Positions 3,985-39,765 of a DNA stretch of 41,031 nt are shown here, piece by piece (within the stretch, counting starts at the first letter, position 1; the number at the start of each line of letters is the position of its first letter). The notes below the pieces were generated by a model. The model did not search any database and had not been told where the DNA came from. It saw only the letters and a list, made by a program, of their open reading frames with translations. This DNA comes from Bacteroidales bacterium. GTDB lineage: Bacteria > Bacteroidota > Bacteroidia > Bacteroidales > UBA1715. The position numbers and the translations under genes were made by a program. The DNA lies in the NCBI GenBank assembly GCA_012519815.1, contig JAAYPM010000028.1, positions 1-41,031 of the forward strand, written 5' to 3'.

Positions 3985-5097
3985 TTAATCCCTTACACAA
4001 CGCACAGAAAAACCATAATTTTTACTGCAGTCGAACCTGAAGACAAGGCTGCCATTGTCGCCAATGTCACGAAGCCATGCATAATTGGGATCGTACTCAG
4101 TAGCACTCCACCAGCTACCGAAGCTACCAATGCCGTAGAAACCACCATCGTAGTCACGGTTGCCACAAGGAAGGGCTGTAAAACCACTCTTATTGCGATA
4201 CTCAGGATAATCTGTATTGCCCACAGTTCCTTCAGATGTAGAACTCTCCCAACCGCTATCACTCGCTAAAGCCTTGGCAATGTTTTCTCCACCACCTATA
4301 CTAATAACATCATAGCGGTAGCCATTATTTGCTAAATAATTCTCTAACTCTGTCCACTCATCATCGGTAGGTACGTGCCAGCCAGTTGGGCAAAGTTTGC
4401 CTGTATGTACAGCATACCAGTTATACAACGCACCGTAGGTAGTGCCATTGTTTATATTATTTTTATACCAGCAATAAGCAGCCGAAGATAGATTTTCCCA
4501 CTCATTATCATCAGTAACATTAGGTATAGCTGTTCCATCATTGTATTTTGTAGTTTTTAGGTTTTCTGCCATCCATGTTTGTGCACCTATTACTACTGTT
4601 TTATAGGTATTGCCTTCTATATCATTCACTGAACCATAGGTAATATTTGGATTAAATGCAATAGCTCCATTGCTGTCTTCAAGCGTAGTAAATGAGATTA
4701 TGCTTCCATACCCCGTTCCCTTGCTATTGGTAGCATACGCTCGTAGATAATATGTTGTGTTTGCTGTTAAATCTGTAATAGAACTTATAAAAGTACCAGC
4801 CCCTACACCATCTAAAGTTTTATTGTCAGCAATAGTTGGGTTTTCGCTTGTACTCCAGCAAACACCTCGCTCTGTTACTAAAGCACCACCATCAGAACTT
4901 ATTACACCACCACTAATTGCGATGGTTTGGGTTATTTCGGTTACTTCGGTTGTGGTTAATACCGGAATTGTTGTGTTAGTATCACCATCATCTTTTGGAA
5001 TATCTGTTTCTTTCTCACAATTTGTTAGTAATAATACCGATAATACGGCTATCATACTTGCCTTAATGCATACTTTAATTGTTGCTTTTTTGTTCAT
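3985..5097 (-). CDS. FISUMP-domain (Fibrobacter succinogenes major paralogous domain) lipoprotein
   Basis: Lipoprotein signal (SVLLLTNCEKETD); IGAQTWMAENLKTTKYNDGTAIPNVTDDNEW...YCWYKNN...YGALYNWYAVHTGKLCPTGWHVPTDDEWTELE...SGFTALPCGNRDYDGGFYGIGSFGSWWSATEYD...SVRCVRD. Confidence 0.9.
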   Translation of the reverse strand: MNKKATIKVCIKASMIAVLSVLLLTNCEKETDIPKDDGDTNTTIPVLTTTEVTEITQTIAISGGVISSDGGALVTERGVCWSTSENPTIADNKTLDGVGAGTFISSITDLTANTTYYLRAYATNSKGTGYGSIISFTTLEDSNGAIAFNPNITYGSVNDIEGNTYKTVVIGAQTWMAENLKTTKYNDGTAIPNVTDDNEWENLSSAAYCWYKNNINNGTTYGALYNWYAVHTGKLCPTGWHVPTDDEWTELENYLANNGYRYDVISIGGGENIAKALASDSGWESSTSEGTVGNTDYPEYRNKSGFTALPCGNRDYDGGFYGIGSFGSWWSATEYDPNYAWLRDIGDNGSLVFRFDCSKNYGFSVRCVRD

Positions 5098-5561: not shown

Positions 5562-5594
5562 TTGTGCTTTTTGTTATTTTTTTTTGTACTTTTA
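5562..5594 (+). promoter_or_regulatory. Possible Bacteroidota-type promoter for the GH9 gene
   Basis: TTG (5562-5564) and TACTTTTA (5587-5594), one mismatch to TAnnTTTG, with 22-nt spacing, 31 nt before the likely ATG. Confidence 0.35.
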
Positions 5595-5625
5595 CACTCT
5601 TAACATCCTAAATAATACAAAAAAA

Positions 5626-8600
5626 ATGAAAATCTCACATGTAATAGCATTGCTTATTTCAATGACTCTTTTGTTGAATACTCAAGCACAAATTTCTCAT
5701 CAAGATTATGTAAAAGCTGGCTGGATGACAGCACGAATGTATGGCGGAAATCGCTCTGGACATGGTCCTAACTGGCTTATAATGACGTATAATTCGGGGC
5801 GGGATTTTATAAAAGACGCTGACGGATCGCACAATTTAGTTGGTGGTTGGCACGACTGTGGCGACCATGTAAAATTTGGACAAACACAATTTTATGCTAC
5901 CTATATGCTTCTACTTGGATATTCTGCATTCCCTGAAGGATATGACGATTTTTATTCATTTGATTACCGTGGCTACAAAGCGGCAAATGATTTCTCTTTT
6001 GAAGGAAAAAAAGGAACACCAAATGGAATTCCTGATATTTTAGATGAAGTGAAATATGCAACCGATTATTTTATAAAATGTATCCCAAATGGAACAACGT
6101 TTTATAGCCAAGTGGGAAATGGTAATTATGATCACAAAAATTGGGTAACTTCGGTAACAATGGCTACATATAGCAACGATCAAGGTGGCGAAGCAGGAGG
6201 AGCACGTCAAATTAAAAAAAATCCAAATGATGGCTCTATGGTTTCATTTTGCGGTGCAACATTAGCTCTTATGTCGCGAATGTATAGGCACTTTGATGCT
6301 GCCTATGCCGACCAATGTTTACAACATGCGTTACATGCATATCAATACGCATCTGCTCATAAAACTAACACAGGTGGAACTACTATTACAGGCTCTTTTT
6401 ATGGCAAAGACAACAAATGGCAAGATAATTATGTGTGTTTGCTTGCTGAATTATATTGGGCAACTGGCGATGAAGCGTATAAAACAGAAGCTCTCTCCTA
6501 TGCAGCAAATATTAGCGACCATGGGTGGGTGTTAGATTACGAAAATAGTGATGATTTGGCAGCATACGCACTTGCAAAACTTGGCAACGCTCGTGGTGTT
6601 TCTGAATTAAATAAAATGTGTACTCGATACAAAAATGCGGCAAATTCAAGTAATGTAATGGAAGTTGGAAGTACTTGGGGACGACTGCGATACACCGCAA
6701 GTGCTGCCTTTGTACTTGCTTTGCAACATGCCTTAAATAATGATGGTACCATTCATACTGCTCTTAAAGGTTCTATTGATTATATACTCGGGCAAAATTC
6801 AGCAAATCAATCATTTATTGTAGGTTTTGGTTCAAAATCGCCGCAGCGCCCGCATCATAGAAATGTGTTTATGAACGATAGCAAGAATTATACAATTCCT
6901 ACTAAAAATAAGCAACACGGGTATCTTGTAGGTGGCACATTCACACCAGGCAGTTTTCCTGATAATATTGATGATTACGCAACCAGTGAAGGGGGAATTG
7001 ACTATAATGCAGGATTAGTAGGTGCTTTGGGGTATATAAATTCAATATACTCTCCTGTAGATCAATCAAAATTTGGTTTTAAAAATTGTAACAGTCCTAA
7101 TTTAGGAGCAGATGTGAGTTTATGTGGAATTGGAAGTGTTACCTTAAATGCTCAATTGCCTTCGTCTGGACGAACATTTAGCTGGCAAAGAAATGGCACT
7201 ACAATAGCTGGAACGTCAAATACACTTACGGTTTCTACAGCAGGAACATACAAAGTAATTGCTGATTCGGCTGGTTGCATTACAACTGATGAGATTGTTG
7301 TAAGTGCAGAAATTCCAAATGTAAATCTTGGAGATGATAAAGTACTTTCAGGTTCTATTACATTAGACGCGGGCGTTTCTGGTAGTGGACTTGCCTACAC
7401 ATGGAAACGAAATGGTGTTCAATTATCACAAACAACAAAAACAATCACCGTGTCTGATGAAGGAACATATTCTGTTACTGTAAGTGGCAGCGGATGTACA
7501 AGTAAGTCCGACGAAGTTGTTATTACTCGTCCACCAGCATTAGTTAAAACCACTACAGCTATTACAATTGATGGTGTAAAAGATGCATCGTACCCTGCAT
7601 CTACACCAATCACAAAAGCACTCGTAGGAACACCTTCGGCAACAAACTTATCAGCTTCATGGTCTGGGCTTTGGGACAATACAAATATATATTTATTTGT
7701 TTCTGTAACCGATAATGATTTGAGAAATGATTCTAACAATTCGTGGTGGGACGATGATGGTGTTGAAATTTTTATTGCTGGAAAAAACAACAAAGGTACT
7801 TCGTATGGTGCAAATGATTTTCAATGGGGATTTGTATGGAACAGAACCAGCGTAATAGCTGGAAGTAATAATCCTGCCAACTCAACTACTGGGCTTTCAT
7901 TTAAAATAGTGCAAGTTACAGGAGGATATAATATAGAAATACTAATACCATGGAGCAGAATTGGTGTTACTCCAAGTGTTGGACATGTTATAGGATTTGA
8001 CGTAGCGGTAAATGATGACGATGGCGGAGGAACACGAGATAATAAAATAGCATGGCATGCTACTGAGGACGAAGGGTGGCAGGACCCACGTGTATTTGGA
8101 GAATTAGAATTAATTGATGCTCCTGTTATTGCCCCTCCTGCAATTATTACCGCTGGAGGTTCAACAACATTCTGTGATGGCGAATCGGTTACTCTTTCGG
8201 CAAATACAGCTGCAGGATATACCTATCAATGGAAACGAAATGGAACAAACATTACAGCAGCAACCTCATCTACATACACCGCAAATCAAGCAGGAGCATA
8301 TACTGTTGTTGTTACGGCTAATGGAATTTCTACAACCTCTGATGCAACAACAGTAACTGTTAAAGCAAAACCAACAACACCAAGTCCAACAGCTAATAGC
8401 CCACTATGTGCAGGTGCTACTTTAAATTTAAACACAACATTTGTTGCAAATGCAACATATACATGGAGCGGTCCTAATGGATACACCGCAAACACTCGCA
8501 TGCCTTCTCGTACAAATGTTACCACAAACATGTCTGGTACATATAGTGTTACCACAACAGTAAATGGATGTGTAAGTAATGCTGGTTCAATTGCAATAAC

Positions 8601-9312
8601 GGTGAATGCAATTCCTTCGGCACCAATAGTAACAAGTCCTGTAAATTATGAGCAACATCAAACCGCACAGCCATTAACAGCAAATGGAACTAATCTTACA
8701 TGGTACACTGTTGCAACTAATGGCACAGGCTCTACAACTGCTCCAACACCTGTAACTGCAACAATAGGAACGATTAATCATTACGTTTCACAAACAGTAA
8801 ATTCTTGTGAAAGTAGTAGAGCAACTATTGCGGTAATTGTAAATCCTGCAAAACAAACTATTACACTAGCACAAGGTTGGAATTTGATTTCGATTAATGT
8901 TTCTCCAACTCATAATACTGTAGAACAAGTATTTGCAAATGTGAATGTGGATATTGTAAAAAACAATGATGGATTTTATAAGCCATCACAAAATGCAGTT
9001 TTTAACAGTCTCAAAACAATTGAGCTTGGAAAAGCATATTTAGTATATGCAAATACTGCAAGTACTCTTGAAATAGAAGGAAGTAGAAACACTGGAATAC
9101 AAACACCTCTTGCTCAAGGATGGAATATGATTGGAGTTCCCCGTACAAGTAATGTTGCTATTTCAACAACAATATCAGGAACTCCTGCACAAGTAATTAA
9201 AAACTTTGACGGATTTTATCAAGTTGGTGGAAATACCAATAGTATTACTAATTTTATTCCCGGACAAGGCTATTATATTTATGCTACAGCAGCAGGAATA
9301 ATATCATGGTAA
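5626..9312 (+). CDS. Glycoside hydrolase family 9 endoglucanase with Ig-like, CBM9-like and C-terminal duplicated GWN-type domains
   Basis: Signal peptide MKISHVIALLISMTLLLNTQAQ; GH9 motifs VGGWHDCGDHVKFG, SPQRPHHRN, SEGGIDYNAGLVGAL; a CBM9-like segment (ITIDGVKDASYPASTPITKAL...DDGVEIFIAGKNN) and several Ig-like segments. Confidence 0.92.
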   Translation: MKISHVIALLISMTLLLNTQAQISHQDYVKAGWMTARMYGGNRSGHGPNWLIMTYNSGRDFIKDADGSHNLVGGWHDCGDHVKFGQTQFYATYMLLLGYSAFPEGYDDFYSFDYRGYKAANDFSFEGKKGTPNGIPDILDEVKYATDYFIKCIPNGTTFYSQVGNGNYDHKNWVTSVTMATYSNDQGGEAGGARQIKKNPNDGSMVSFCGATLALMSRMYRHFDAAYADQCLQHALHAYQYASAHKTNTGGTTITGSFYGKDNKWQDNYVCLLAELYWATGDEAYKTEALSYAANISDHGWVLDYENSDDLAAYALAKLGNARGVSELNKMCTRYKNAANSSNVMEVGSTWGRLRYTASAAFVLALQHALNNDGTIHTALKGSIDYILGQNSANQSFIVGFGSKSPQRPHHRNVFMNDSKNYTIPTKNKQHGYLVGGTFTPGSFPDNIDDYATSEGGIDYNAGLVGALGYINSIYSPVDQSKFGFKNCNSPNLGADVSLCGIGSVTLNAQLPSSGRTFSWQRNGTTIAGTSNTLTVSTAGTYKVIADSAGCITTDEIVVSAEIPNVNLGDDKVLSGSITLDAGVSGSGLAYTWKRNGVQLSQTTKTITVSDEGTYSVTVSGSGCTSKSDEVVITRPPALVKTTTAITIDGVKDASYPASTPITKALVGTPSATNLSASWSGLWDNTNIYLFVSVTDNDLRNDSNNSWWDDDGVEIFIAGKNNKGTSYGANDFQWGFVWNRTSVIAGSNNPANSTTGLSFKIVQVTGGYNIEILIPWSRIGVTPSVGHVIGFDVAVNDDDGGGTRDNKIAWHATEDEGWQDPRVFGELELIDAPVIAPPAIITAGGSTTFCDGESVTLSANTAAGYTYQWKRNGTNITAATSSTYTANQAGAYTVVVTANGISTTSDATTVTVKAKPTTPSPTANSPLCAGATLNLNTTFVANATYTWSGPNGYTANTRMPSRTNVTTNMSGTYSVTTTVNGCVSNAGSIAITVNAIPSAPIVTSPVNYEQHQTAQPLTANGTNLTWYTVATNGTGSTTAPTPVTATIGTINHYVSQTVNSCESSRATIAVIVNPAKQTITLAQGWNLISINVSPTHNTVEQVFANVNVDIVKNNDGFYKPSQNAVFNSLKTIELGKAYLVYANTASTLEIEGSRNTGIQTPLAQGWNMIGVPRTSNVAISTTISGTPAQVIKNFDGFYQVGGNTNSITNFIPGQGYYIYATAAGIISW

Positions 9313-9349
9313 ATAATACAATATCAGTTGTGATATGCCAAAAAAAAGA

Positions 9350-9386
9350 GGCTAACCGATAAAATTACATGCTTTATCGGTTAACC
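9350..9386. terminator. Bidirectional hairpin terminator between convergent genes
   Basis: GGCTAACCGATAAA-attacatgc-TTTATCGGTTAACC (one mismatch), preceded by an A-tract, between the GH9 gene and the minus-strand operon. Confidence 0.75.
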
Positions 9387-9416
9387 TTCTTAAAATCTAC
9401 GATTTTATGGTTATTT

Positions 9417-10541
9417 TTAAATTTTTAATCCTATTCCGTAAGCAGCTATAATTTTCGCATTTTCATCATCTTCTACTGCAAAATACATCATCATTTCGCC
9501 AGGTAAAAGTATGAAATAAATTTCTGTTTCCCACTTGCTCTCATCTTCCAACTCAACTTCTGTTATTACTTTAAACACATTATTGAGTGTAGGTACCCGT
9601 TCAAATAATTTTACTGTAGAACCATCAGCATCAAAATACTCCTCTCCTGTATTCATTCTTTCATAATATGTAAGTTTAGTTCCTGCGTTTGATATTTCAT
9701 AATATCCAATAGATGTACCCGAATAGGTTGTGATACTCAACATTTTATACACACCATCTAATGTGCTAACATCTACTGGCGATGCAGGATAATGAGTTGC
9801 TATAGAAAATCCATTTCCTGGACCATTATCCATAAGCATTAATTTACCTGGCAAAACACTTCCAACAGCCTCTAATCCAGCAGATTCTTCAAATGCCACA
9901 CGCGAATTATTCTCATTTATAAATTCCAATTTACCCACATCACCTCCCGTAAAAGCAATTTGACTTATTTGTTCATCACCCATAGACCAACTATAATTGC
10001 CATTTGCATCTAAGCGACAACCTCCCCAAAATCCATCGGGCGATTTTTCCGTATCATCAACATTCATAAAGATATAATCACCGGTCAAATCAGACATAGT
10101 CAATTGTTGTTCATCATAAATATCAGACGAAATTCCTACACAAATTTTATTTGCAGTGTTTCCCATTGGCATAGAACTTATCATAGCTATTCCGGGTAAT
10201 TCCACAGTATATTGCGACATTCCATTCACCCTTGTTTCATATACTCCACTCAATTTAGGATTCGTTGATAATTGAAATGTACCCGAACCTTTTTCGCCAG
10301 TAGTTTCATTATTAAAACTATATTGAAGCGATTTTTCATTAATTTCCATACTAATAACATCACCATAACTTGCCGACATAAAATATTTTCGAACTACTTG
10401 GGAATTATTCGTTGTTGTATCATTAGGTTGTGGATTAACATCGGGTTGTGGAGACGAAGGCTCATCTTTGCACTGTGTGAATCCTATCATTCCCACACTT
10501 GCAACACACATAAGGTATAAAATTTCTTTTTCATAATACAT
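9417..10541 (-). CDS. Lipoprotein of unknown function
   Basis: 374 aa with a lipobox-like N-terminus (MIGFTQCKDEPSSPQPD) and a Pro/Thr/Asn-rich linker; last gene of the minus-strand operon. Confidence 0.75.
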   Translation of the reverse strand: MYYEKEILYLMCVASVGMIGFTQCKDEPSSPQPDVNPQPNDTTTNNSQVVRKYFMSASYGDVISMEINEKSLQYSFNNETTGEKGSGTFQLSTNPKLSGVYETRVNGMSQYTVELPGIAMISSMPMGNTANKICVGISSDIYDEQQLTMSDLTGDYIFMNVDDTEKSPDGFWGGCRLDANGNYSWSMGDEQISQIAFTGGDVGKLEFINENNSRVAFEESAGLEAVGSVLPGKLMLMDNGPGNGFSIATHYPASPVDVSTLDGVYKMLSITTYSGTSIGYYEISNAGTKLTYYERMNTGEEYFDADGSTVKLFERVPTLNNVFKVITEVELEDESKWETEIYFILLPGEMMMYFAVEDDENAKIIAAYGIGLKI

Positions 10542-10563
10542 AATTTTTTAATGATTACTTATT

Positions 10564-13344
10564 TTATTTAACTATTATTTTTATTGTGTTTTTATTAGTA
10601 TCAACATACAGTAACAACACATACACTCCTTGTGTTACTTGCATATCTATATATAATTGTTGAGTTGTTTTTGCGTGATTTTTATACACAATAGCTCCGT
10701 GCATATCAGTAATTTCATAGGATATTTCATCATACATTTTTCCTAAATCCACTACAAATTTTCCATCATTTGGATTTGGATACACGGTAATATTATCCAA
10801 CAGATTATGAGAAATTCCAACAGTTACAACCTCATAACATTCTGAAGTAGCAACACAACCATTTTTGGATACTTCAACTACATATTGTCCATTAGCAGTT
10901 GCTACAAATATTTGTTCTTGTGCATTTTCAAGTGCTACAAAAGTGTCATCACAATATTTCCATTGATAAATTGCATCAGATTCAGCCACAGTCAATATAT
11001 TTCTATCAACCACCACCTCAATATGTGGCGATTTGTTTATGGTCAAATCTAAAGTTACAATGCTATCACAACCCGCAACATTCGTTAATACAAACTCTGC
11101 ACTGTTATTACTTTCGGTATATGTAATGCCGTCTATCCATGTGTAAGAATCACAGGCAGTTATTACATCTGTTGAAGAAGAACTATACTGTATAGTCAAA
11201 TCTAAAGTTACAATGCTATCGCAACCTGCCACATTCGGTAATACAAACTTTGCACTATTGTTACTTTCGGTATATGTAATGCCGTCTATCCATGTGTAAG
11301 AATTACAAGCGATAATTTCATCAGTTCCATAACTCAATTCATTAACTTTAAAATCGAGCATTACCAAACTATCGCATCCAAACGTTGTTTTAAACATTTC
11401 CGTGTACACACCCGATTTTGTTAACAATTGATTACCAAACTGATACGGCAAATCGGTTTCGCACACTTCATGCATTACTTCTACAGTAGAATTTGTATGC
11501 AAAGCAGGCAAAAATAATTTTACATCATCATACAAACTATGCGAATTTGAGCTTAATTCTATAGACAATGGTTCAACACCTTCTATAATAGGAAATTCTT
11601 CATACTCCACTCCCCCGTTTGTACCAATCTGCTGAACTTCATCTAAGAAAACTTTATAGGTGAGCGTTTCAAAATCAAATTCCAAACGCACAGTGTGCCA
11701 TACATTAGGCTCTACAATATCAAACGTATAAACAGCTCCCGCACCATTTTTATAATTAGTAGCTATGAATGTGCCATTATTATATTGCACGCCACCCAAA
11801 AATGCTCCCCATGTACCAAATGTAGGATTACCAATTCGGATATCCCCCATTCCTTGTGCAAAAAATCGCGTTTCGAGAGCAAATTGTTGTGGAAACTCAT
11901 CAATATAACGAGATAAATTTGCTGCCCAACCCGAAGTTCCTGATAAAGAAAATATCTTATTATCTTCATTTTCAGGGTCGGTGATAATCTTTTGGTCTTC
12001 TGTTTTAGTACCATTATAGCGTATTACCCAACCCGCAGGTAACGTATCAATCGCAGCATGTTCAAAATCATCATAATACAGCACAGTTTCTGTAATTCCA
12101 TAATTAGGATGAATTGTAATCGTAGTTTCTCGTTCAATTTCCGTATCGCTATCTTCGTGCCGCAAAATAGCCGAAACCGTATATTCTCCAGCGTGCTTAT
12201 ATGTATGTGCAACTCGACTTTGAGGAGCACGCACCACCATAGGCGAACCATCGCCAAAATTCCAATGCACAACGTCAATATCAACAGCATCTGTATAAAA
12301 TTGAGCTAATTCATTACCACACATACTATTATTTTCAGCATAAATATTTCCTCGTGGATCTAAATTCTTCTCAAAAACATGCTCCAAAGGTGCGCTCCAA
12401 TAACCACTATTATATTTAAATTGAACAAACATTGTACGTTCTCCACCCCACATATACTCTGGCATTGGCAAATCCTCTATCCAATTAAATATCTCTGCAG
12501 GTTCATCTACAGTAATAGTAAACATAGTATCAGTATCATCGTCAAACCAATAACGATAGGTTGTTATAGTACGGTCAATAACGACTGTTTGCGTTGGCAT
12601 TTTATAAAAACTTGTAGTTTTAATGCTACTCCAATACCCATTACTATCTTTAAAACGCACATGAAACTGATGTAAACCGTTTTTTAATTCTGCCATTGAC
12701 AATAATTCATCAATCTGAATAAGTTCCTGATTTTGAGCAACAGAAATTGCATGTTCAAAATCATTATCTATCCAATACTGAAATTCTGAAATAGTAGATG
12801 ACTCTGTACTTGCAGTAATAATAGGAAGTTTATAAAAACTTGTAGTTTTAATGCTACTCCAATACCCATTACTATCTTTAAAACGCACATGAAACTGATG
12901 TAAACCGTTTTTTAATTCAGCCATTGACAATAATTCATCAATCTGAATAAGCTCCTGATTTTGAGCAACAGAAATTGCATGTTCAAAATCATTATCTATC
13001 CAATATTGAAACTCTGAAATAGTAGATGACTCTGTACTTGCAGTAATAACAGGAAGTTTATAAAACGAACGTTTCACAATACTACTCCACACCCCATCGC
13101 TGTCAACAAAACGAATATTAAATTGATGTAAACCTGTAGGTAATTCTTCGGTAGAAACATTTTGTTCAAAAATGAATGTTTCCGAAGGCGTTATTGAGGC
13201 TACAGTTTTCTCGCTATTATTAAACCAATATTCATAGCCTACAATATTATTTTGAGCCACAGCAAGGTTCAAAGAAAAAATGGATAGAAATATTATTATA
13301 CTATATCTCATTTCAAAATAGGTTTTACGTTTAATCTTGTTCAT
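10564..13344 (-). CDS. Large surface protein with internal repeats, a PKD-like domain and a T9SS type A C-terminal sorting domain (start may be 13311)
   Basis: Signal peptide MRYSIIIFLSIFSLNLAVAQ; PKD-like VVHWNFGDGSPMVVRAPQSRVAHTYKHAGEYTVSA; C-terminal VYPNPNDGKFVVDLGK...YEITDMHGAIVYKN...QGVYVLLLYVDTNKNTIKIIVK. Confidence 0.9.
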   Translation of the reverse strand: MNKIKRKTYFEMRYSIIIFLSIFSLNLAVAQNNIVGYEYWFNNSEKTVASITPSETFIFEQNVSTEELPTGLHQFNIRFVDSDGVWSSIVKRSFYKLPVITASTESSTISEFQYWIDNDFEHAISVAQNQELIQIDELLSMAELKNGLHQFHVRFKDSNGYWSSIKTTSFYKLPIITASTESSTISEFQYWIDNDFEHAISVAQNQELIQIDELLSMAELKNGLHQFHVRFKDSNGYWSSIKTTSFYKMPTQTVVIDRTITTYRYWFDDDTDTMFTITVDEPAEIFNWIEDLPMPEYMWGGERTMFVQFKYNSGYWSAPLEHVFEKNLDPRGNIYAENNSMCGNELAQFYTDAVDIDVVHWNFGDGSPMVVRAPQSRVAHTYKHAGEYTVSAILRHEDSDTEIERETTITIHPNYGITETVLYYDDFEHAAIDTLPAGWVIRYNGTKTEDQKIITDPENEDNKIFSLSGTSGWAANLSRYIDEFPQQFALETRFFAQGMGDIRIGNPTFGTWGAFLGGVQYNNGTFIATNYKNGAGAVYTFDIVEPNVWHTVRLEFDFETLTYKVFLDEVQQIGTNGGVEYEEFPIIEGVEPLSIELSSNSHSLYDDVKLFLPALHTNSTVEVMHEVCETDLPYQFGNQLLTKSGVYTEMFKTTFGCDSLVMLDFKVNELSYGTDEIIACNSYTWIDGITYTESNNSAKFVLPNVAGCDSIVTLDLTIQYSSSSTDVITACDSYTWIDGITYTESNNSAEFVLTNVAGCDSIVTLDLTINKSPHIEVVVDRNILTVAESDAIYQWKYCDDTFVALENAQEQIFVATANGQYVVEVSKNGCVATSECYEVVTVGISHNLLDNITVYPNPNDGKFVVDLGKMYDEISYEITDMHGAIVYKNHAKTTQQLYIDMQVTQGVYVLLLYVDTNKNTIKIIVK
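11042..11320 (-). repeat. Tandem internal repeat, period 153 nt (51 aa), two copies
   Basis: gtcaaatctaaagttacaatgctatc...ccgtctatccatgtgtaagaat begins at 11042 and again at 11195; encodes ITACDSYTWIDGITYTESNNSAEFVLTNVAGCDSIVTLDLTI. Confidence 0.85.
12601..13062 (-). repeat. Near-identical tandem direct repeat, period 228 nt (76 aa), two copies
   Basis: cttgtagttttaatgctactccaatacccattactatc... begins at 12611 and 12839; encodes TASTESSTISEFQYWIDNDFEHAISVAQNQELIQIDELLSMAELKNGLHQFHVRFKDSNGYWSSIKTTSFYK twice. Confidence 0.92.
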
Positions 13345-14347
13345 TCTGAGCTTTTACCGTAATTTTCACAGGCAAATTACCGTTTTCATCAACTTTATGC
13401 GGAATATCAACCGACTCAATATATGGAATAACAGGAATGGCATCTACTTTATACGGATACATTCCACCATAAATTCCAACTTGTGTACCATCTTCGCCTA
13501 TATAAACTTCAGGCTCTTGTAAATGCAAATCATCTGCGAGATTATAACTAACTCCATTTTTACTTACAAAAAAATCCTGCATTTCTACGCTATACCAATC
13601 ATTTTGAACATCACTATTAGTTCCACAATCAGCCGAAGAATGTGAAAAGACATTATTATAACAAACATTTCCATTTCCAGAGCAAATATAATGTTTATCG
13701 TATCTATTATTCCTTGCAAAATAATTATTTAATATCATATTATTAGATCCAACAATAGTATAACTACTAAAGTCTGAAAAGAAAATATTATTTTTTATGA
13801 TATTTTCAATTGTATTGTGTATTTGAGCAATAATAATATTATTACTTATAAGTGTACGCACTGTGTTTTGCACATTAATTGTTGCGTGAATTACAGAACC
13901 TACGAGTAAAAAATCTTCTGTAGGATGTTCAGTTCCAGTAAACGTGATACTACCTCTAATGTTACAACGTTTAACCGTTAAATTTTTAACAGATTTATTA
14001 TTTTCTACAGATAAATTTCCAAAATCTATTCCCTCAATAAGGAAATTATCAGCACCTTGCTTTAAAGCAAAGTTTCCATTTACATACGTTTTTCCTGTGG
14101 CAGTTGTAACTTCCTCCAAATGTCCAACACCATAAATTTTTAATGATTTGTCAAAACTTGCAGGAGCAGTAAAATTATGTCCAGAAAGATAGAGCGTGTC
14201 GCCATCTTGAGCAGCATTATTAGCATCTACAAAGGAATTTATACCTTTAAAAATTTGTGTTTCTCCGTTACGATGTAATGCAACAGTTTGAGCCATTGCT
14301 GCAAAAGAGAAAGATACCAAAAGACTTACTATTACATGTTTTTTCAT
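13331..14347 (-). CDS. Secreted beta-helix-like repeat protein, paralog 3 of 3
   Basis: Signal peptide MKKHVIVSLLVSFSFAAMAQ; GDTLYLSGHNFTAPASFDKSLKIYGVGHLEE shared with the next two genes; NNxI/NN-rich repeats suggest a parallel beta-helix. Confidence 0.8.
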   Translation of the reverse strand: MKKHVIVSLLVSFSFAAMAQTVALHRNGETQIFKGINSFVDANNAAQDGDTLYLSGHNFTAPASFDKSLKIYGVGHLEEVTTATGKTYVNGNFALKQGADNFLIEGIDFGNLSVENNKSVKNLTVKRCNIRGSITFTGTEHPTEDFLLVGSVIHATINVQNTVRTLISNNIIIAQIHNTIENIIKNNIFFSDFSSYTIVGSNNMILNNYFARNNRYDKHYICSGNGNVCYNNVFSHSSADCGTNSDVQNDWYSVEMQDFFVSKNGVSYNLADDLHLQEPEVYIGEDGTQVGIYGGMYPYKVDAIPVIPYIESVDIPHKVDENGNLPVKITVKAQNEQD

Positions 14348-14376
14348 ACTATATAATTTTTTAGATTTATAAAAGC

Positions 14377-15408
14377 TTAATCATTTTCTTTTTGTACGCT
14401 TACTTTAATTTTCACAGGTAATTCACCTTGTTCAGTAGTTGTGTTTGAAATATCCATTTCTATAACATGTGGATTTTTAGGCACAGCACCTTCTTTATAT
14501 GGAAAAGCTCCGCCATAAATACCAACTTGTTTACCGTCATTTCCTACATAGAGAGTTTCATCTTGCAAATGATAATTGTGAGCATAATCAAACGCTGAAC
14601 CTGCTTGATTGATAAATAAATCAGAAAGAGTGGCTCCAGTTATATTGTTTGACAAAGTTGAATTAGTTCCCATACTTGGTTCAGCATGAGTAAACACATT
14701 ATTACTCAACACGTTGCCCTCTCCACTCACAATATAATTAAGATAACTTCCTTCTCTTTGAATTATATTATTTGAGATAATATTATTATTACAAGCACTA
14801 AATACGTGCGTTGAAAATGAGGTGTTTGAGAATAAAATTATATTGTTGGTAAAACTATTTCCATAGCTATACACAAAACGTCCGTTTGAAATAATACAAT
14901 TACTCACAAGTACATTTTCAGCATTTTCAAAATTTCCACCTCCAAACACCGCCCCTATAATAGCAATATTGGTAGAAACATTTGTTTTGTTTCCAATAAT
15001 AGAAATTTCGTCAGTAATGAAACACCTTTTTATAGTTAAATTCGTAATAGATTCATTGCCTATAATTTCAAATCTACCAGAAATTGCAAATCCTTCTATA
15101 TGAAAATTATCTGCTCCCTGCGATAGTTTAAAATTACCACTCATAATAGTTCTTCCTGTAGCTGCAGAGGAATCTTGATAATGCCCTGCACCAAAAAGAG
15201 TAAGTTCCTTATTTAAAGATGCTGGCGGAAAAAATGTTCCACCCGAAAAATACAAAGTATCACCACTTAACGTTGCTTCATACGCTTGTGCAAAAGCAGT
15301 GTTACCGTTAAAAATTTGTGTTTCGCCATCTCTACATAAAGCTATAGACTGAGCACAAAGTGTTAAAGAGAAAAATAAACTCACACTAATTATTAAAATC
15401 CTTTTCAT
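14377..15408 (-). CDS. Secreted beta-helix-like repeat protein, paralog 2 of 3
   Basis: Signal peptide MKRILIISVSLFFSLTLCAQ; GDTLYFSGGTFFPPASLNKELTLFGAGHYQDS; C-terminus GELPVKIKVSVQKEND. Confidence 0.82.
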   Translation of the reverse strand: MKRILIISVSLFFSLTLCAQSIALCRDGETQIFNGNTAFAQAYEATLSGDTLYFSGGTFFPPASLNKELTLFGAGHYQDSSAATGRTIMSGNFKLSQGADNFHIEGFAISGRFEIIGNESITNLTIKRCFITDEISIIGNKTNVSTNIAIIGAVFGGGNFENAENVLVSNCIISNGRFVYSYGNSFTNNIILFSNTSFSTHVFSACNNNIISNNIIQREGSYLNYIVSGEGNVLSNNVFTHAEPSMGTNSTLSNNITGATLSDLFINQAGSAFDYAHNYHLQDETLYVGNDGKQVGIYGGAFPYKEGAVPKNPHVIEMDISNTTTEQGELPVKIKVSVQKEND

Positions 15409-15441
15409 AATATTATAATTTTAGTTTTAAACAAAGTATAA

Positions 15442-16485
15442 TTAATCTTGGTCTTTTTGAGTACTAACTTTAATTTTCACAGGCAGTTCGCCTTCTTCAT
15501 TAGTTGTGTCTGAAATATTCATTTCCATAATGTGCGGATTTTTAGGCACAGCACCTTCTTTATATGGGAAAATGCCACCATAAATTCCAACTTGTGTGAC
15601 ATCATATCCAACATACAATGTTTCATCTTGCAGATGATAATTATGAGCATAATCAAAGTTTGTTCCTGTTTGATTTACAAATAAGTCTTCTAAAGCAACT
15701 CCAAAGTAATTATTTGATAGTATTGGGTTTGTTCCAAGTTGCGGCGAACTGTGAGTAAACAAATTATATTTCAGCACATTATCGTATCCGTTTATAATAT
15801 AAGCCGGATATCCACCAGCTCTATGAATGATATTATTTGCAATAGTATTATTATGACAATCAGCAAAAACAAAATGGTAATCACCGGCATAGAAAATAAT
15901 ATTGTTCATAAAACTATTTCCAGAGCTATTAAAAAAACCTCCATCAGAAATAATAGAATTACTCACAAGCACATTTTCAGCATTTTCAAAATTTCCACCT
16001 CTAAACACCGAGCCTATAACCACAATATTAGACGACATAGTAGTTTTGTTACCAGGTATTACTATATCGTTAGTTATAAAGCATCTTTTAATAGTTACAC
16101 CAGTTACCGCTTCATTGTTCGCAATTTCAAATTTACCTGAAATCGAAATTCCTTCAATATAAAAGTTATTGGCAGTCTGTGATAATTTTACAGTACCATT
16201 AAAAAAAGTTTTGCCAGTCACCTCGGTAGAATCTTGATAATGCCCTGCACCAAAAAGGGTAAGTTCTTTACTCAAAGTTGCTGGCGGAAAAAACGTTCCA
16301 CCCGAAAAATACAAGGTATCTCCATCTTGCGATGCTTCATACGCTTGTGCAAAAGCTGTGCTTCCTTTAAAAAGGAGACTATTACCTTCGTGATGCAATG
16401 TAATAAACTGCGCATAAGAAGTATAGACGAACATCATGCTCAAACAAAGAATGTAAAATTTTTTCATGTTTTTATACGTAAACAC
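15442..16485 (-). CDS. Secreted beta-helix-like repeat protein, paralog 1 of 3 (start may be 16467)
   Basis: Signal peptide MKKFYILCLSMMFVYTSYAQ; GDTLYFSGGTFFPPATLSKELTLFGAGHYQDS; C-terminus GELPVKIKVSTQKDQD; very similar to paralog 2. Confidence 0.82.
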   Translation of the reverse strand: MFTYKNMKKFYILCLSMMFVYTSYAQFITLHHEGNSLLFKGSTAFAQAYEASQDGDTLYFSGGTFFPPATLSKELTLFGAGHYQDSTEVTGKTFFNGTVKLSQTANNFYIEGISISGKFEIANNEAVTGVTIKRCFITNDIVIPGNKTTMSSNIVVIGSVFRGGNFENAENVLVSNSIISDGGFFNSSGNSFMNNIIFYAGDYHFVFADCHNNTIANNIIHRAGGYPAYIINGYDNVLKYNLFTHSSPQLGTNPILSNNYFGVALEDLFVNQTGTNFDYAHNYHLQDETLYVGYDVTQVGIYGGIFPYKEGAVPKNPHIMEMNISDTTNEEGELPVKIKVSTQKDQD

Positions 16486-16805
16486 TGAGATTAAATAACT
16501 GTGATTTTTATTTTGTATGTTTTTATCTACTTTTCAGAAGCAAACTATCAAAGATAATAAAAGCAAAAACAAAAAACCAATAAAATTAAATAAAACATTC
16601 AGCAAAAACACAAAAAATATGAACACAAAAAAACACGTATAACATTCTTATTTTCAACTCTGTAATTTTACATATCAACAAAAAAACGCATACAAATAGA
16701 TATCTTTATTTATATGTTGCCCTACAAAACTACATTTCTCAACTAACAACAACTAATAATTTAAAAAATACATGTATATTTGAAAAAATCTCTAAACATA
16801 TTCTT

Positions 16806-18797
16806 ATGAGTATTCCAAAACTTGTTGAAAACGACCCATGGCTCAATCAGTTTAAAGATGCCATTATAGGACGATTAGAATATTCTAAACAACGTGAAAA
16901 ACAACTTACAAAAGGAAGTGGTTCTCTTATTGATTTTGCAAATGGGCATCTTTTTTTTGGTTGTCATAAAACAAAAACCCATTGGATATTTCGAGAATGG
17001 GCACCAAACGCCACAAATATTTGTTTAGTTGGTGATTTTACCGATTGGAAAGAACGGGTTGAATTTGTGTTTGATAATAAAGACACCTATTGGGAACTTC
17101 AAATTCCTTTAGAAAAAATTTCTCATGGCGATTTATATAAATTATCGGTATATTGGAAAGGTGGGCATGGCGATAGAATTTCAGCATGGTCAACACGAGT
17201 GGTACAAGATGAAGACACAAAATTGTTCAGCTCTCAAATTTGGGACACTAAACCATACGTTTGGAAACATAAAGTTCCCACAAAACCTATAACACCATTA
17301 ATTTACGAAGCTCATGTGGGCATGGCAACAGAAGAATATAAAGTGGGCACGTATTCGGAATTCACACAAAAAATTCTTCCTATTATTAAAAAAGCTGGAT
17401 ACAATACGGTGCAATTAATGGCAATTCAAGAGCACCCATATTATGGTTCGTTTGGGTATCATGTTTCAAGTTTTTTTGCAGCCTCATCACGATTTGGAAC
17501 GCCAGAAGAACTCAAAACACTTATTGATACAGCACACGGCATGGGACTTAGAGTAATTATGGATATTGTTCATTCTCATGCGGTTAAAAATGAAGTTGAA
17601 GGATTAGGTTGTTACGATGGAACAGATTATCAATTTTTTCATAAAGGACCAAAAGGAAACCATGATGCATGGGATTCAAAATGTTTTGATTATGGAAAAG
17701 ATGATGTGGTACATTTTCTTCTTTCTAACTGTAAATACTGGCTTACAGAATATAAATTCGACGGATTTCGCTTTGATGGAGTAACAAGCATGCTATATTG
17801 GGATCACGGTTTAGGGCGTTCTTTTGACACTTACGAACGATATTTTGATGGTGGACAAGATGGTGATGCAATTTGTTATTTGATGCTGGCAAACAAATTA
17901 ATTCACGAATGCAATCCGCATGCAATTACCATTGCCGAAGACGTAAGCGGCATGCCAGGACTCGCTTCTCCGTATGATTACGGGGGATATGGATTCGATT
18001 ATAGATTATCTATGGGAGTTCCTGATTTCTGGATAAAATTATTAAAAGAAAAACGCGATGAAGATTGGCATGTTGGTCAAATTTTTCATGAACTTACACA
18101 AGCTCGTTTTGATGAAAAAGTAATATCATACGCAGAATCTCACGACCAAGCACTTGTTGGCGATAAAACTATTGCATTTCGATTAATGGATAAAGAAATG
18201 TATTTTAATATGCATGTTGCCTACCCAAGTTTAGTTATTGACAGGGGTTTAGCTTTACATAAATTAATTCGATTAATAACCCTTACTACCTCTCAAAACG
18301 GGTATTTGAATTTTATGGGTAATGAATTCGGACACCCCGAATGGGTTGATTTTCCTCGTTCGGGCAATAATTGGTCATATCATTATGCACGCAGACAATG
18401 GTCGTTACGAAATGACGAAAATCTTCGATATAAGTTTCTTGCAGATTTTGATGCTGATATGATTAGTTTAGTTACAAAAAAATCTGATTTTTTCTCTCAA
18501 AAAGCTAACTTTATTTCTGAAAACATTCAAGACCAAGTTCTTATATATGAGCGTTCTGAATATATTTTTATTTTTTCATTTAATCCTACCACTTCATTTC
18601 CCGATTATGGATTTGCAACAAAAAAAGGAAAATATAAAGTAATGCTCACTATTGATTCCGCAAAATACGGGGGATTACAACGCATTGACGAACAAATGAT
18701 TTACACTACAACTTCTGCATCTGACAAAAAATTTAGCGAACATTTTTTACGTATCTATATTCCTACTCAAACAGCAATAGTATTAAAAAGAGTGTAA
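16806..18797 (+). CDS. glgB: 1,4-alpha-glucan branching enzyme, GH13, eukaryote-like type
   Basis: FREWAPNATNICLVGDFTDWKE (CBM48), YEAHVGMATEEYKVGTYSEF, GLRVIMDIVHSHA, FDGFRFDGVTSMLY, ITIAEDVSGMP, YAESHDQALVGDKT, LNFMGNEFGHPEWVDFPR. Confidence 0.95.
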   Translation: MSIPKLVENDPWLNQFKDAIIGRLEYSKQREKQLTKGSGSLIDFANGHLFFGCHKTKTHWIFREWAPNATNICLVGDFTDWKERVEFVFDNKDTYWELQIPLEKISHGDLYKLSVYWKGGHGDRISAWSTRVVQDEDTKLFSSQIWDTKPYVWKHKVPTKPITPLIYEAHVGMATEEYKVGTYSEFTQKILPIIKKAGYNTVQLMAIQEHPYYGSFGYHVSSFFAASSRFGTPEELKTLIDTAHGMGLRVIMDIVHSHAVKNEVEGLGCYDGTDYQFFHKGPKGNHDAWDSKCFDYGKDDVVHFLLSNCKYWLTEYKFDGFRFDGVTSMLYWDHGLGRSFDTYERYFDGGQDGDAICYLMLANKLIHECNPHAITIAEDVSGMPGLASPYDYGGYGFDYRLSMGVPDFWIKLLKEKRDEDWHVGQIFHELTQARFDEKVISYAESHDQALVGDKTIAFRLMDKEMYFNMHVAYPSLVIDRGLALHKLIRLITLTTSQNGYLNFMGNEFGHPEWVDFPRSGNNWSYHYARRQWSLRNDENLRYKFLADFDADMISLVTKKSDFFSQKANFISENIQDQVLIYERSEYIFIFSFNPTTSFPDYGFATKKGKYKVMLTIDSAKYGGLQRIDEQMIYTTTSASDKKFSEHFLRIYIPTQTAIVLKRV

Positions 18798-18889
18798 AGA
18801 GTTATATTACGTTATTTATTATGAGCAATATCATATTCTTTATATAAACTTTTATTGGAAAAATCAGTAGTAATTCTTGAATTTATTCC

Positions 18890-18897
18890 TACTTTTG
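18890..18897 (+). promoter_or_regulatory. Possible Bacteroidota -7 element (TAnnTTTG) upstream of the debranching enzyme gene
   Basis: TACTTTTG at 18890-18897, 25 nt before the ATG, in the only sizeable gap (125 nt) of the glycogen cluster; no well-spaced -33 TTG. Confidence 0.35.
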
Positions 18898-18922
18898 TGG
18901 CATACGAAAAAATTTTCTACAC

Positions 18923-20881
18923 ATGAGCTACTTAGAGTTTCAAAAACAGGAAGTTACAAACCTTAGCGTGTCGTTAAAACAAGAATTTATACGCACCAAC
19001 AGATTGGGAGCATATGCATGTTCTACAATCATTTATTGTAATACTCGAAAATATCATGGCTTACTTATTAGTCCTATAAAAGAACTAAACAATGAACTTT
19101 TTGTGCTTCTTTCATCACTTGACGAAACGGTAATACAGCATAACACACCTTTTCATCTTGCAATTCATAAATATATAAACGACTATAACCCTTTAGGGCA
19201 TAAATATATAGAATCATATAAAAACGAACCAACCCCTACCCTTACCTACAGAGTTGGGGGCGTATTGCTTCAAAAAGAAATTCTTCTTGTAGAAGAAGAA
19301 GACCGTATTCTTATAAAATACACGCTTCTTAAAGCAAATTCAAAAACAACCCTGCAATTACGTCCATTTCTTGCGTTTCGAAATATTCATGAACTTACAC
19401 ACGCAAATATGGAGGCAAAAACAAAATACACCTCTATAGAAAACGGTATTTCAACGCAATTATATCAAGATTTTCCACATCTTGCAATGCAACTTTCTAA
19501 AAAGAACGAATACATTTCAGCACCCGATTGGTACAATAATTTTGAATATACAAAAGAAAAAGAGCGAGGATTTGCATGTATAGAAGATTTGTTAACACCC
19601 GGTTATTTTGAAGTGCCTATAGAAACAGGAGAATCTATAGTATTTTCGGCAGGATTGACACCTATAAAAACAAATTCATTACAAAAACTGTTTGATTCCG
19701 AAATTAAAAAAAATGCACCCATTACTAATTTTGAGAATTTTTTACGAAAAGCTTCGCAACAGTTTTTCTCTCGAAAAAATAATAAAACCGAAATTATTGC
19801 AAGTTTTCCTTGGCCCGGAAAATGGGGACGAGACAGCATGATTGCCTTACCGGGATTAACCTTAGCGTTAGATGACCTACAAACCTGCCAAGATGTTTTA
19901 GATACAATAACCGAAGAAATACACGGATACATGTATAAAAATGTGGGAAATATAGAACATTCAAATGTTGAATCTATAGACACTGCATTATGGTATGTGC
20001 GTGCCGTTCAACATTTTGCGAAACACTCTTCTATAACAAATGTAAAAAAACGATACGCAAAAAAAATTCAAGAAATAATTACTGCCTTTAAATCAAACCA
20101 AAGTGATATTATTACTATGCACGAAAATGGTTTGTTGTATTTGAATCACGCAGACAAAGCTCTTACATGGGCTGATGCAAAAATTCAAGGAAAACCCGTA
20201 GTTCCTCGTTGGGGCTATGTTGTTGAAATAAATGTATTGTGGTATAATGCTATAAAATTTGCACTTGAAATAATATCAGATAAAAAATTTCAAGCAGAAT
20301 GGCTGCCTATACCCGAAAACATTGAAAATTCATTTACAGAAATCTTTTGGGACGATTCACGTAACTACTTAGCAGACTATGTAACAGAAAATTACAAAGA
20401 TTTTTCGGTGCGTCCAAGTCAAGTGTTTGCAGCATCACTGCCCTATTCACCTCTTAAAGATAAAATGCAGAAACATGCTATTTTAGAAATAATAAAAAAA
20501 GAATTACTTACTCCTCGCGGAATTAGAACTCTTTCGCCCAAAAATCCATTATATAAAGGAGAGTGTAAAGGAACTATCCAAGAACGAGATATTGCATACC
20601 ACCAAGGCTCTGTGCTTTTATGGCTGCTTGCTCCCTATGCCGAAGCATATTTAGAACTTCATGGAAAATCAGGAGTTACTGAAATTAAACGTATATACAA
20701 TGGTCTTGAAGAGGCTCTTTTTACACACGGAATAGGAACATTTTCAGAGCTTTACGACGGAAACCCTCCTCATGAAGGACGAGGAGCAATATCGCAAGCA
20801 TGGAGCGTCGCTGCTGCTTTACGTATAAAAAAACTCATTGACAATTTCGAACACATTGAATTAACAAAAGAGAAAAAATGA
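18923..20881 (+). CDS. Amylo-alpha-1,6-glucosidase / glycogen debranching enzyme (GH133-like)
   Basis: EFIRTNRLGAYACSTIIYCNTRKYHGLLISP (GDE_N-like); FPWPGKWGRDSMIALPGLTLAL; NVESIDTALWYVRAVQHF; FSELYDGNPPHEGRGAISQAWSVAA. Confidence 0.92.
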   Translation: MSYLEFQKQEVTNLSVSLKQEFIRTNRLGAYACSTIIYCNTRKYHGLLISPIKELNNELFVLLSSLDETVIQHNTPFHLAIHKYINDYNPLGHKYIESYKNEPTPTLTYRVGGVLLQKEILLVEEEDRILIKYTLLKANSKTTLQLRPFLAFRNIHELTHANMEAKTKYTSIENGISTQLYQDFPHLAMQLSKKNEYISAPDWYNNFEYTKEKERGFACIEDLLTPGYFEVPIETGESIVFSAGLTPIKTNSLQKLFDSEIKKNAPITNFENFLRKASQQFFSRKNNKTEIIASFPWPGKWGRDSMIALPGLTLALDDLQTCQDVLDTITEEIHGYMYKNVGNIEHSNVESIDTALWYVRAVQHFAKHSSITNVKKRYAKKIQEIITAFKSNQSDIITMHENGLLYLNHADKALTWADAKIQGKPVVPRWGYVVEINVLWYNAIKFALEIISDKKFQAEWLPIPENIENSFTEIFWDDSRNYLADYVTENYKDFSVRPSQVFAASLPYSPLKDKMQKHAILEIIKKELLTPRGIRTLSPKNPLYKGECKGTIQERDIAYHQGSVLLWLLAPYAEAYLELHGKSGVTEIKRIYNGLEEALFTHGIGTFSELYDGNPPHEGRGAISQAWSVAAALRIKKLIDNFEHIELTKEKK

Positions 20882-22188
20882 AAATACTTATGTTTGGGTG
20901 GGAATTTCCACCTCACATTTCAGGAGGACTTGGTACGGCATGTTATGGTTTAACAAAAGCCATGACAAAACAAGATTTGGAAATTATTTTTATTGTTCCA
21001 AAAGCTTGGGGTGATGAAGATCAAAGTCTTGTAAAACTTGTGGGGGCAAATAATATTCCTGTACGAATAAAAAAATACAGTTTTCGTGATGAGTCTATAA
21101 AAAAAGCTCACAATGTACAATATGTTGAAATTGGTTCAGATTTAATTCCCTATGTGTCAACCGAAGAATATTATAATATTATAAACAATAGAGTAAATAC
21201 GACAAAACAACTTAAACAATACACTCATACACAAGAACTTGACACCATTACATTTGAAGGAGGATACGGAGGAAGCCTTATTCATGAAGTAGGAGCATAT
21301 GCACGGGTTGCACGACAAATTGCTCAAGAATTTGATTTCGATATTATTCACGCTCATGATTGGCTTACATATGATGCTGGTATTGCAGCAAAAGAGGTGT
21401 CTGGAAAACCACTCGTAATACATGTTCATGCAACAGAATTTGACCGAAGTGGCATGCATGTAAATCAATTTGTGTACGATATTGAACGCAGAGGGATGCA
21501 CGCTGCTGATGCAATAATTACAGTTAGTAATTTAACCAAAAGTACTGTTGTAAATAATTACGGAGTTTCTGAATCAAAAGTAACAACAGCATATAATGGT
21601 GTTGACGATGTGCAACTATCAACACCGCAAAAATTTAAAAAAAATGTTGACGATAAAATAGTTACATTTCTTGGAAGAATTACCTTTCAAAAAGGACCAG
21701 AATATTTTTTAGAAGCAGCTGCAAAAGTATTGCAACGCAAAAAAAATGTTAAATTTGTAATGGCTGGAAGCGGTGATATGTTTGAAAAAATGATGTGGAG
21801 AGCTGCAGAACTTGGAATTTCTGAAAATTTTTATTTTACAGGCTTTTTGCGTGGCGATGATGTTATTCACATGCTTTCAATTAGTGATGTGTATGTAATG
21901 CCATCAGTTTCAGAGCCTTTCGGCATATCGCCTCTCGAAGCAATGCGTTCAAATGTTCCTGTAATTATTTCAAAACAATCAGGGGTTTCGGAAATCTTAA
22001 AACATGCTATAAAAATCGATTTCTGGGATGTGGACTCTATGGCAGATGCAATCTATGGCATTGTGAGTTATAATGGTCTCGACAATATGTTTAAAACGTA
22101 CGGAAAAGTAGAAGTTGACAATTTGAAATGGGACTCGGCAGCAAAAACAATAAAATCTATCTATCAAAACACCTTATCAAACGCATAA
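20878..22188 (+). CDS. Glycosyltransferase family 4, glycogen synthase-like
   Basis: MKILMFGWEFPPHISGGLGTACYGLTKAM; DIIHAHDWLTYDAGIAAK; VTFLGRITFQKGPEYFLEAAAKV; MPSVSEPFGISPLEAM. Overlaps the upstream stop by 4 nt. Confidence 0.9.
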   Translation: MKILMFGWEFPPHISGGLGTACYGLTKAMTKQDLEIIFIVPKAWGDEDQSLVKLVGANNIPVRIKKYSFRDESIKKAHNVQYVEIGSDLIPYVSTEEYYNIINNRVNTTKQLKQYTHTQELDTITFEGGYGGSLIHEVGAYARVARQIAQEFDFDIIHAHDWLTYDAGIAAKEVSGKPLVIHVHATEFDRSGMHVNQFVYDIERRGMHAADAIITVSNLTKSTVVNNYGVSESKVTTAYNGVDDVQLSTPQKFKKNVDDKIVTFLGRITFQKGPEYFLEAAAKVLQRKKNVKFVMAGSGDMFEKMMWRAAELGISENFYFTGFLRGDDVIHMLSISDVYVMPSVSEPFGISPLEAMRSNVPVIISKQSGVSEILKHAIKIDFWDVDSMADAIYGIVSYNGLDNMFKTYGKVEVDNLKWDSAAKTIKSIYQNTLSNA

Positions 22189-22190
22189 AC

Positions 22191-23492
22191 ATGAAAAATA
22201 TTTGCTTACATTTTCAAGTTCATCTACCTTTCAAATTACGTACATATCGTTTTTTTGACATAGGTACAGATCATTATTATTATGATGATTTTCTTAATAA
22301 ATCTACCTTGCTACGAGTAGCTAAAAGTTCATATATCCCTATGAATACACTTTTGCTTGACCTTATAAAAAAACATAAGGGAAAATTTAAAGTGAATTTT
22401 TCAATAAGTGGAAGTGCTATTGAACAATTTGAAAAATATACGCCCGAGGTAATTGAAAGTTTTCAAGAGCTTGCAAAAACTGGAAAGGTTGAGTTTTTAG
22501 CACAACCATACAACTACTCATTGGCATCTATTAAATCCGAAGAGGAGTTTCGTAAACAAGTTGAAATGCATAGCAATAAAATACGTGAAGTATTCAACAA
22601 AACACCAAAAGTGTTTCATAATGCACATTATATTTATTCTGATTATATTGGCGACATGGTGCTCAATATGGGATATAAAGGTATTCTCATTGAAGGTGCG
22701 AGACATATTTTAGGTTGGAAAAGTCCTAATTTCCTCTATTGTAGTGCCAATAATCCAAAACTAAAAATTCTTCTTCGTAATTATAAAATGAGCGACGATA
22801 TTGCACTACGTTTTTCAAATCAAGCTTGGGATCAATGGCCCCTAACAGCTGATAAAATGGCTGGGTGGATTAAAAATTTACCACAAGACGAAGAAATTCT
22901 TAATCTGTGTATGGACTATGAAACATTTGGTGAATATCAACATAAATCAACAGGAATTTTTGATTTTATGAAAACACTACCTGACGCAATTCTTAATCAT
23001 ACAGATTTTTCGTTTACAACATTTTCAGAAATAATTAAAGACGGACAACCTGTTTCAGTGCTAAGTGTGCCAAACACTACATCTTGTGCCGACGAAGAAC
23101 GAGATATATCACCATGGCTTGGAAATAATTTGCAAAGAGAAGCTTTTGATGCATTATACAAACATGTTGATACTATGCACGCTATAACAGATGAGTATAT
23201 TTTACAAGATTGGAAATATTTGCAAAACTCAGATAATTTTTATTATATGAGTACCAAATTTTTTGCTGATGGAAATACGCCTTTAAAAGCAAACCCGTAT
23301 CCTACTCCATACGAGGCATTTATTAATTTTATGAATGTTATAGGTGATTTTAATGAACGGGTTAAAAAAGCACCAAAAACACATGAGCAAATTCAATTTT
23401 CAAAAGAAGAACTCGATCAAGAAATAGCAAAACATACAGCGGCTCTTGAGCAACTGATTGAACTAAAAACAAAAGGTAATATAAAAAAGTAA
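22191..23492 (+). CDS. Glycoside hydrolase family 57 (alpha-amylase-like)
   Basis: MKNICLHFQVHLPFKLRTYRFFDIGTDHYYYDD; VNFSISGSAIEQFEKYTPEVIESFQELAKTGKVEFLAQPYNYSLASI; LNLCMDYETFGEYQHKSTGIFDFMKTLP. Starts 2 nt after the GT4 stop. Confidence 0.9.
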   Translation: MKNICLHFQVHLPFKLRTYRFFDIGTDHYYYDDFLNKSTLLRVAKSSYIPMNTLLLDLIKKHKGKFKVNFSISGSAIEQFEKYTPEVIESFQELAKTGKVEFLAQPYNYSLASIKSEEEFRKQVEMHSNKIREVFNKTPKVFHNAHYIYSDYIGDMVLNMGYKGILIEGARHILGWKSPNFLYCSANNPKLKILLRNYKMSDDIALRFSNQAWDQWPLTADKMAGWIKNLPQDEEILNLCMDYETFGEYQHKSTGIFDFMKTLPDAILNHTDFSFTTFSEIIKDGQPVSVLSVPNTTSCADEERDISPWLGNNLQREAFDALYKHVDTMHAITDEYILQDWKYLQNSDNFYYMSTKFFADGNTPLKANPYPTPYEAFINFMNVIGDFNERVKKAPKTHEQIQFSKEELDQEIAKHTAALEQLIELKTKGNIKK

Positions 23493-23522
23493 ATAATTAA
23501 TTTTTAAATAGTAAATAAACAA

Positions 23523-30625: not shown

Positions 30626-30641
30626 GTATGATTTATGTTTA

Positions 30642-33696: not shown

Positions 33697-33833
33697 TTTG
33701 TGATAAATGGGAAAGCCATTAAGCATTAAAAACCCTACATTAAGCACTAAAAGACATGTTTTTTGCAACAATAATGCTACTTAATGGTACTTTTCTACTA
33801 TACAAATATGTGTATTTACGTATATTTGTTATA

Positions 33834-39761: not shown

Positions 39762-39765
39762 AATT

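Follow-up and report, generated by a model that had tools for sequence, protein, structure and literature searches.

Five closely spaced genes lie on the minus strand of the window (the whole 41,031-nt stretch analyzed here), as the initial annotation had described, with gaps of 33, 29, and 22 nt and one overlap of 14 nt. The first three, b1 (15442..16467), b2 (14377..15408), and b3 (13331..14347), encode secreted beta-helix proteins; b1 is 341 aa long and probably begins at ATG 16467 rather than at GTG 16485. The fourth (10564..13344) encodes a protein, here called R, with a signal peptide, four EYWFD repeats, a PKD domain, and a T9SS type A C-terminal sorting domain (CTD); its overlap with b3 becomes a 19-nt gap if R starts at ATG 13311, the likely start and the one with the better signal peptide. 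The fifth gene, in the same transcription unit, encodes a putative lipoprotein (9417..10541; ...GFTQ-CKDE). Beyond it lies an intrinsic terminator hairpin (9349..9387) of −21.5 kcal/mol (z −6.2), equaled by none of 200 shuffles. This hairpin had been called bidirectional; it is indeed strong, but its clean T-run serves the minus strand only. Scans of the window for sigma-70 and TAnnTTTG promoters gave matches not above chance, although TATCTTTG is present at 16549-16556 upstream of b1. No tRNA and no Rfam RNA was found in the window.

Convergent with the five genes is a gene for a GH9-CBM9 multidomain cellulase (5584-9312, plus strand), whose C terminus has a "GWNLIS"-type repeat and on which no T9SS sorting domain was detected. 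Divergent from them is a probable glycogen/alpha-glucan cluster (16806-26087, plus strand) with branching-enzyme-like, glycosyltransferase, GH57, and phosphorylase genes. Farther away are a protein with a Fib_succ_major domain (3985-5097, minus strand), an 880-aa protein matched in Pfam by a CHU_C T9SS domain and nothing else (28031-30673, minus strand), and a 2001-aa protein with PKD repeats and a type B (CHU_C) T9SS domain (33756-40812, plus strand), the gene for which overlaps a PorP/SprF gene in an SprB-like arrangement. The host genome, a 2.26-Mb assembly, has SprA and 31 CTD matches; the only members of the two families in it are b1 to b3 and R.

The three tandem paralogues have the N- and C-terminal motifs reported for them and are 65% (b1/b2) and 41% (b1/b3) identical. 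Their beta-helix-like character was borne out in two ways: PF13229 matches b1 (30.3 bits, cutoff 25.9; b2 and b3 score below it), and the AlphaFold2 model of a relative, the natural beta-helix-R fusion L132 (the same protein as L042), has a regular helix of strands over residues 22 to 245. Domain profile scans confirmed that none of the three has a T9SS CTD. The signal peptide of b1 ends ...SYA^Q, and a Q directly follows the signal peptide in b1, b2, b3, and R alike, in agreement with the Bacteroidetes Q-rule (PMC10653852).

Such a fold raises the possibility of a glycan-degrading pair, in which polysaccharide lyases or epimerases (the beta-helix proteins) work with a carbohydrate-binding carrier (R). 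Foldseek with the full L132 fusion does match the helix part, with weak E-values, to alginate epimerases/lyases (8jaz, 5lw3) as well as to phage tail-fiber beta-helices, and the GH9-CBM9 gene is next door. Yet the residues conserved across the family are mainly glycine, proline, and asparagine in turns and ladders, together with an N-terminal D50/K67; no acid/His/Arg cluster is among them, and, weak Pect-lyase/NosD matches to a few members aside, no CAZyme profile fits the family. Because the conserved residues look structural, we favor a binding or structural role over catalysis and consider a glycan-degrading pair improbable, although it is compatible with the docking model developed below.

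R is a T9SS type A cargo by its signal peptide and its C-terminal TIGR04183/PF18962 (Por_Secre_tail) domain (10567..10785), in a host with SprA/Sov. Its PKD domain (PF18911 and PF00801; residues 343-410, at 12115..12318) is preceded by four tandem EYWFD repeats of about 66 residues each. R1 (13051..13248) starts right at the mature N terminus and is followed by R2 (12823..13023), R3 (12595..12795), and a divergent last repeat, R4 (12361..12570). R3 duplicates R2 in tandem over 228 bp, with 97% DNA identity (12596-13051), which to judge from sequence is a recent change in repeat number. Among the R proteins scanned, 50 of 70 have a type A and 7 of 70 a type B T9SS domain; no T9SS CTD was found on the beta-helix family members (0/72). 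In three Cyclobacteriaceae-type loci, a PorP/SprF-like gene begins 3 nt after R. Apart from weak Y_Y_Y matches, neither the repeat nor the C-terminal tail of the beta-helix proteins matched an NCBIfam family, a named Pfam family along its full length, or a solved structure by sequence.

The initial annotation took all five genes as one unit. A co-occurrence search did not uphold this and instead shows a two-part unit of one or more beta-helix genes and one repeat protein. With a profile built from b1 to b3, relatives were found in 12 of the 60 genomes searched (the host included), and in nearly all 12 an EYWFD-repeat gene comes directly after. A broader search by profile had matches in 87 of 295 genomes from the order, a figure that includes weak hits on other beta-helix proteins. 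The neighborhoods of about 70 strong matches gave 75 loci, this window included, picked by the beta-helix profile alone and never by R. They hold 91 profile-matched genes. For 71 of these the gene that comes next is R, and for 12 it is a further beta-helix gene from the same set; R fusions account for 3, contig ends for 2, and the remaining 3 depart from the pattern (one is a broken gene, and two are in loci ordered beta-helix, X, beta-helix, R). The gap between beta-helix gene and R has a median of 12 nt and is at most 60 nt in 66 of 71 cases. Across 98 genomes, 11 have both families, none the beta-helix family only, 3 R only, and 84 neither (Fisher 3e-12). Distances among beta-helix proteins mirror those among their R partners (correlation 0.68, reached in none of 300 permutations; 0.93 for 20 paralogous pairs within genomes), and thus the two are inherited together as a unit.

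The lipoprotein was tried as a member of this module and rejected. Among 59 related genomes a single homologue turned up, on a contig that lacks the pair; the pair neighborhoods first examined had none, and we regard the lipoprotein as a local addition outside the conserved module. The multisubunit surface structure proposed for the operon accordingly keeps its support for the beta-helix genes and R, from the conserved pairing, the fusions, and the split Ig-like domain described below, but the lipoprotein is not part of it. In its own right, the lipoprotein has the sequence C-K-D-E, with K-(D/E)2 at +2 after the Cys and a noncanonical lipobox with Q before C; the LES surface export signal is K-(D/E)2 after the lipidated Cys, in the form C-X-K-(D/E)2, for which C. 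canimorsus prefers +3 (PMC5080379).

Pairing with R goes with the tail of the beta-helix protein. In a sample across the phylum, R adjoins the beta-helix gene or tandem in every locus with a tail-bearing beta-helix gene, and the single tail-less beta-helix gene in the sample was without R. As a control, 15 beta-helix genes were inspected in which the match to the profile stops short of the tail; none of the 15 is followed by R, and no R gene lies anywhere in their loci. Several of these tail-less proteins end in what, judged by eye, is CTD-like sequence. Conversely, six R loci lack a classic beta-helix partner. Five of them have a divergent beta-helix-like protein upstream (L273, L274, L276, L277, and L278), and the sixth is cut by a contig end. 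The tails of these divergent proteins are worded differently yet are similarly strand-like (e.g., ...RLIKLTLSNRFVRQGETITIQAQGIAR), and the five loci are a second lineage of the same module. Tandem beta-helix paralogues recur elsewhere in 2 to 4 copies; the largest expansion seen (L074:5161-18437) has four tandem beta-helix genes and a 1782-aa R, followed by another beta-helix and R pair. In L039 (1759-3018), L043, and L201, a secreted protein stands between two beta-helix genes before R; it is about 420 aa long in L039 and has no Pfam match.

A scan for the R motif gave 80 loci, in Bacteroidales, Flavobacteriales, Cytophagales, Chitinophagia, Saprospiraceae, and a few MAGs labeled as other phyla; this set was kept out of the pairing statistics because it was seeded on R and on a fusion. 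The pair occurs in all five of the groups named here, and cultured Rufibacter, Mariniflexile, and Aestuariivivens strains are among its carriers.

What joins the two proteins is suggested by natural fusions. In L042 (=L132), L084, L096, and L192, the tail runs straight into R1 with no signal peptide between them. The first three are from three different genomes of the order; L192 (1099-7263) is labeled Candidatus Neomarinimicrobiota, outside Bacteroidota if the bin is right, and in it eight R repeats follow the fused beta-helix, while another beta-helix gene with a tail lies upstream. A rule of a single repeat in each fused protein was considered; three fusions obey it, and L192 breaks it. With eight repeats in that fusion, one tail per repeat is no rule either, and beta-helix genes and repeats are not equal in number.

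The tail-plus-R1 fragment of L132 is predicted by AlphaFold2 to form a single eight-strand Ig/FN3-like sandwich (pLDDT 92.2, pTM 0.82), from an alignment in which only two aligned rows cover the tail. The tail contributes strands A, A', and B (13-19, 23-25, and 30-37), and R1 contributes strands C to G (44-51 to 105-112). This composite fold is predicted for a fusion only, where covalent linkage forces proximity. Foldseek aligned 108 to 126 columns of the fragment with FN3/Ig-like domains, and Pfam profiles gave no match across the tail-R junction. In the model of the whole L132 fusion, the confident C-terminal domain already includes the last strand of the tail, with strand A at low confidence. 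The fragment was folded apart because alignment A6 had misplaced beta-helix rows over the tail; large mixed alignments in general misplaced rows, and smaller ones were used instead.

The ends of the separate proteins fit the same division. Split beta-helix proteins end 0 to 3 residues past the profile end, just after strand B, in 168 of 174 cases, and in 130 of 151 R proteins, the Q after the signal peptide, the predicted mature N terminus, is 5 to 8 residues before the E of strand C. Linkers between R repeats are short (median, 12 aa; at most 20 aa in 488 of 524). Since only about 12 residues join the repeats, too few for two more strands, the repeats would be without A and B. Because the ends fit and the linkers are short, the split proteins resemble a single Ig domain divided at the B-C loop, the second half of which is tandemly repeated. 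In the present locus, the proposed A and B strands are the C-terminal tails of b1 (P311-D341; 15445..15537), b2 (14380..14472), and b3 (13334..13426), and each of R1 to R4 would provide strands C to G. The shared LPVKI(K/T)V tail pointed out by the initial annotation, which saw the tail and not its identity, thus seems, from the model, to be part of a split Ig-like domain.

Two other readings of the tail deserve consideration. It may be a mere C-terminal cap or linker of the beta-helix in a surface operon pair, with R repeats that self-fold and fusions that reflect gene adjacency. Neighboring genes do fuse by chance, and tail-specific coevolution with R1 was looked for and not seen, the tail-R1 covariation being no higher than that of other stretches of the beta-helix protein. 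A simple cap does not, however, readily account for the fact that most of more than 150 proteins, on either side of the split, are divided exactly between strands B and C, for a tail and R1 that are predicted to fold as one sandwich, or for tail-less beta-helix genes that never adjoin R, and we think this reading unlikely. The tail might also be a new short secretion or anchoring signal, for the T9SS or an outer membrane receptor, with R as unrelated cargo. That tail-bearing proteins lack a CTD while several tail-less ones end CTD-like (again, by eye) would fit such a signal, but the four fusions have the tail inside the chain, leading into R1, CTD profiles do not match it, and the constant adjacency of R is left unexplained; we give this idea very little credence.

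The interpretation that we favor, and consider probable, is a two-component surface assembly in which a split Ig-like domain docks CTD-less subunits on a T9SS-exported R. We propose that each beta-helix protein enters the periplasm via Sec and that its tail of about 31 residues provides the first strands (A, A', and B) for an Ig/FN3-like sandwich, where the chain stops. R, also exported by Sec, would begin at strand C, and each of its repeats would supply strands C to G. The tail could then dock noncovalently into a repeat and complete the fold, as in donor-strand complementation or cohesin-dockerin docking. Because R alone bears the T9SS signal, the docked beta-helix subunits would reach the surface, or stay there, together with R. 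If every repeat were occupied, the R of this locus could display up to four subunits drawn from b1 to b3, as a binding or structural beta-helix layer on the cell.

One can envision a broader version, which we put forward tentatively and as somewhat short of an even prospect: a phylum-wide and undescribed arrangement in which proteins without a T9SS signal complete the half-built Ig repeats of a T9SS-exported scaffold and so hitch a ride through or onto the outer membrane, yielding a polyvalent beta-helix array. A literature search on the motifs, on hitchhiking or piggyback T9SS cargo, and on split domains returned nothing matching. If right, the docking model would account for the link of many CTD-less secreted proteins to the T9SS and would add a trans-docking module to T9SS biology. 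It would also provide a natural split Ig domain, possibly of use as a display or bioconjugation tag.

Several known systems offer partial parallels. Two-partner secretion and autotransporter adhesins (T5SS) likewise place a beta-helix passenger on the surface, as we suppose for the beta-helix proteins here. In this case, though, no T5SS domain matches and a beta-barrel partner is lacking (an Omp85-type gene is absent from the neighbors), a Sec signal peptide is present on each partner, and the CTD sits on the other protein. Among T9SS type A cargo (TIGR04183), R is a regular member and b1 to b3, without a CTD, are not; what would set R apart is that it appears to carry separate CTD-less proteins along, which was not found for T9SS cargo in the literature searched. 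The cellulosome resembles the proposed assembly in having a multirepeat scaffold that displays several copies or kinds of subunit with a short C-terminal docking module. Cohesin and dockerin families gave no match; a dockerin binds a finished domain, whereas the docking element proposed here would complete the fold of its receptor. In that respect the likeness would be to donor-strand complementation in chaperone-usher pili and in the type V pili of Bacteroidales (e.g., Mfa4, PMC4789730), in which an Ig-like fold lacking strands is completed by a strand of another subunit, the composite fold here being predicted in a fusion. No chaperone, usher, or Mfa/FimA-type pilin domain was found in b1 to b3, R, the lipoprotein, or the other window proteins scanned. 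Unlike in those fimbriae, an A-B strand pair at the C terminus of a beta-helix protein would complete the repeats of another protein, and export would be tied to the T9SS CTD on that partner.
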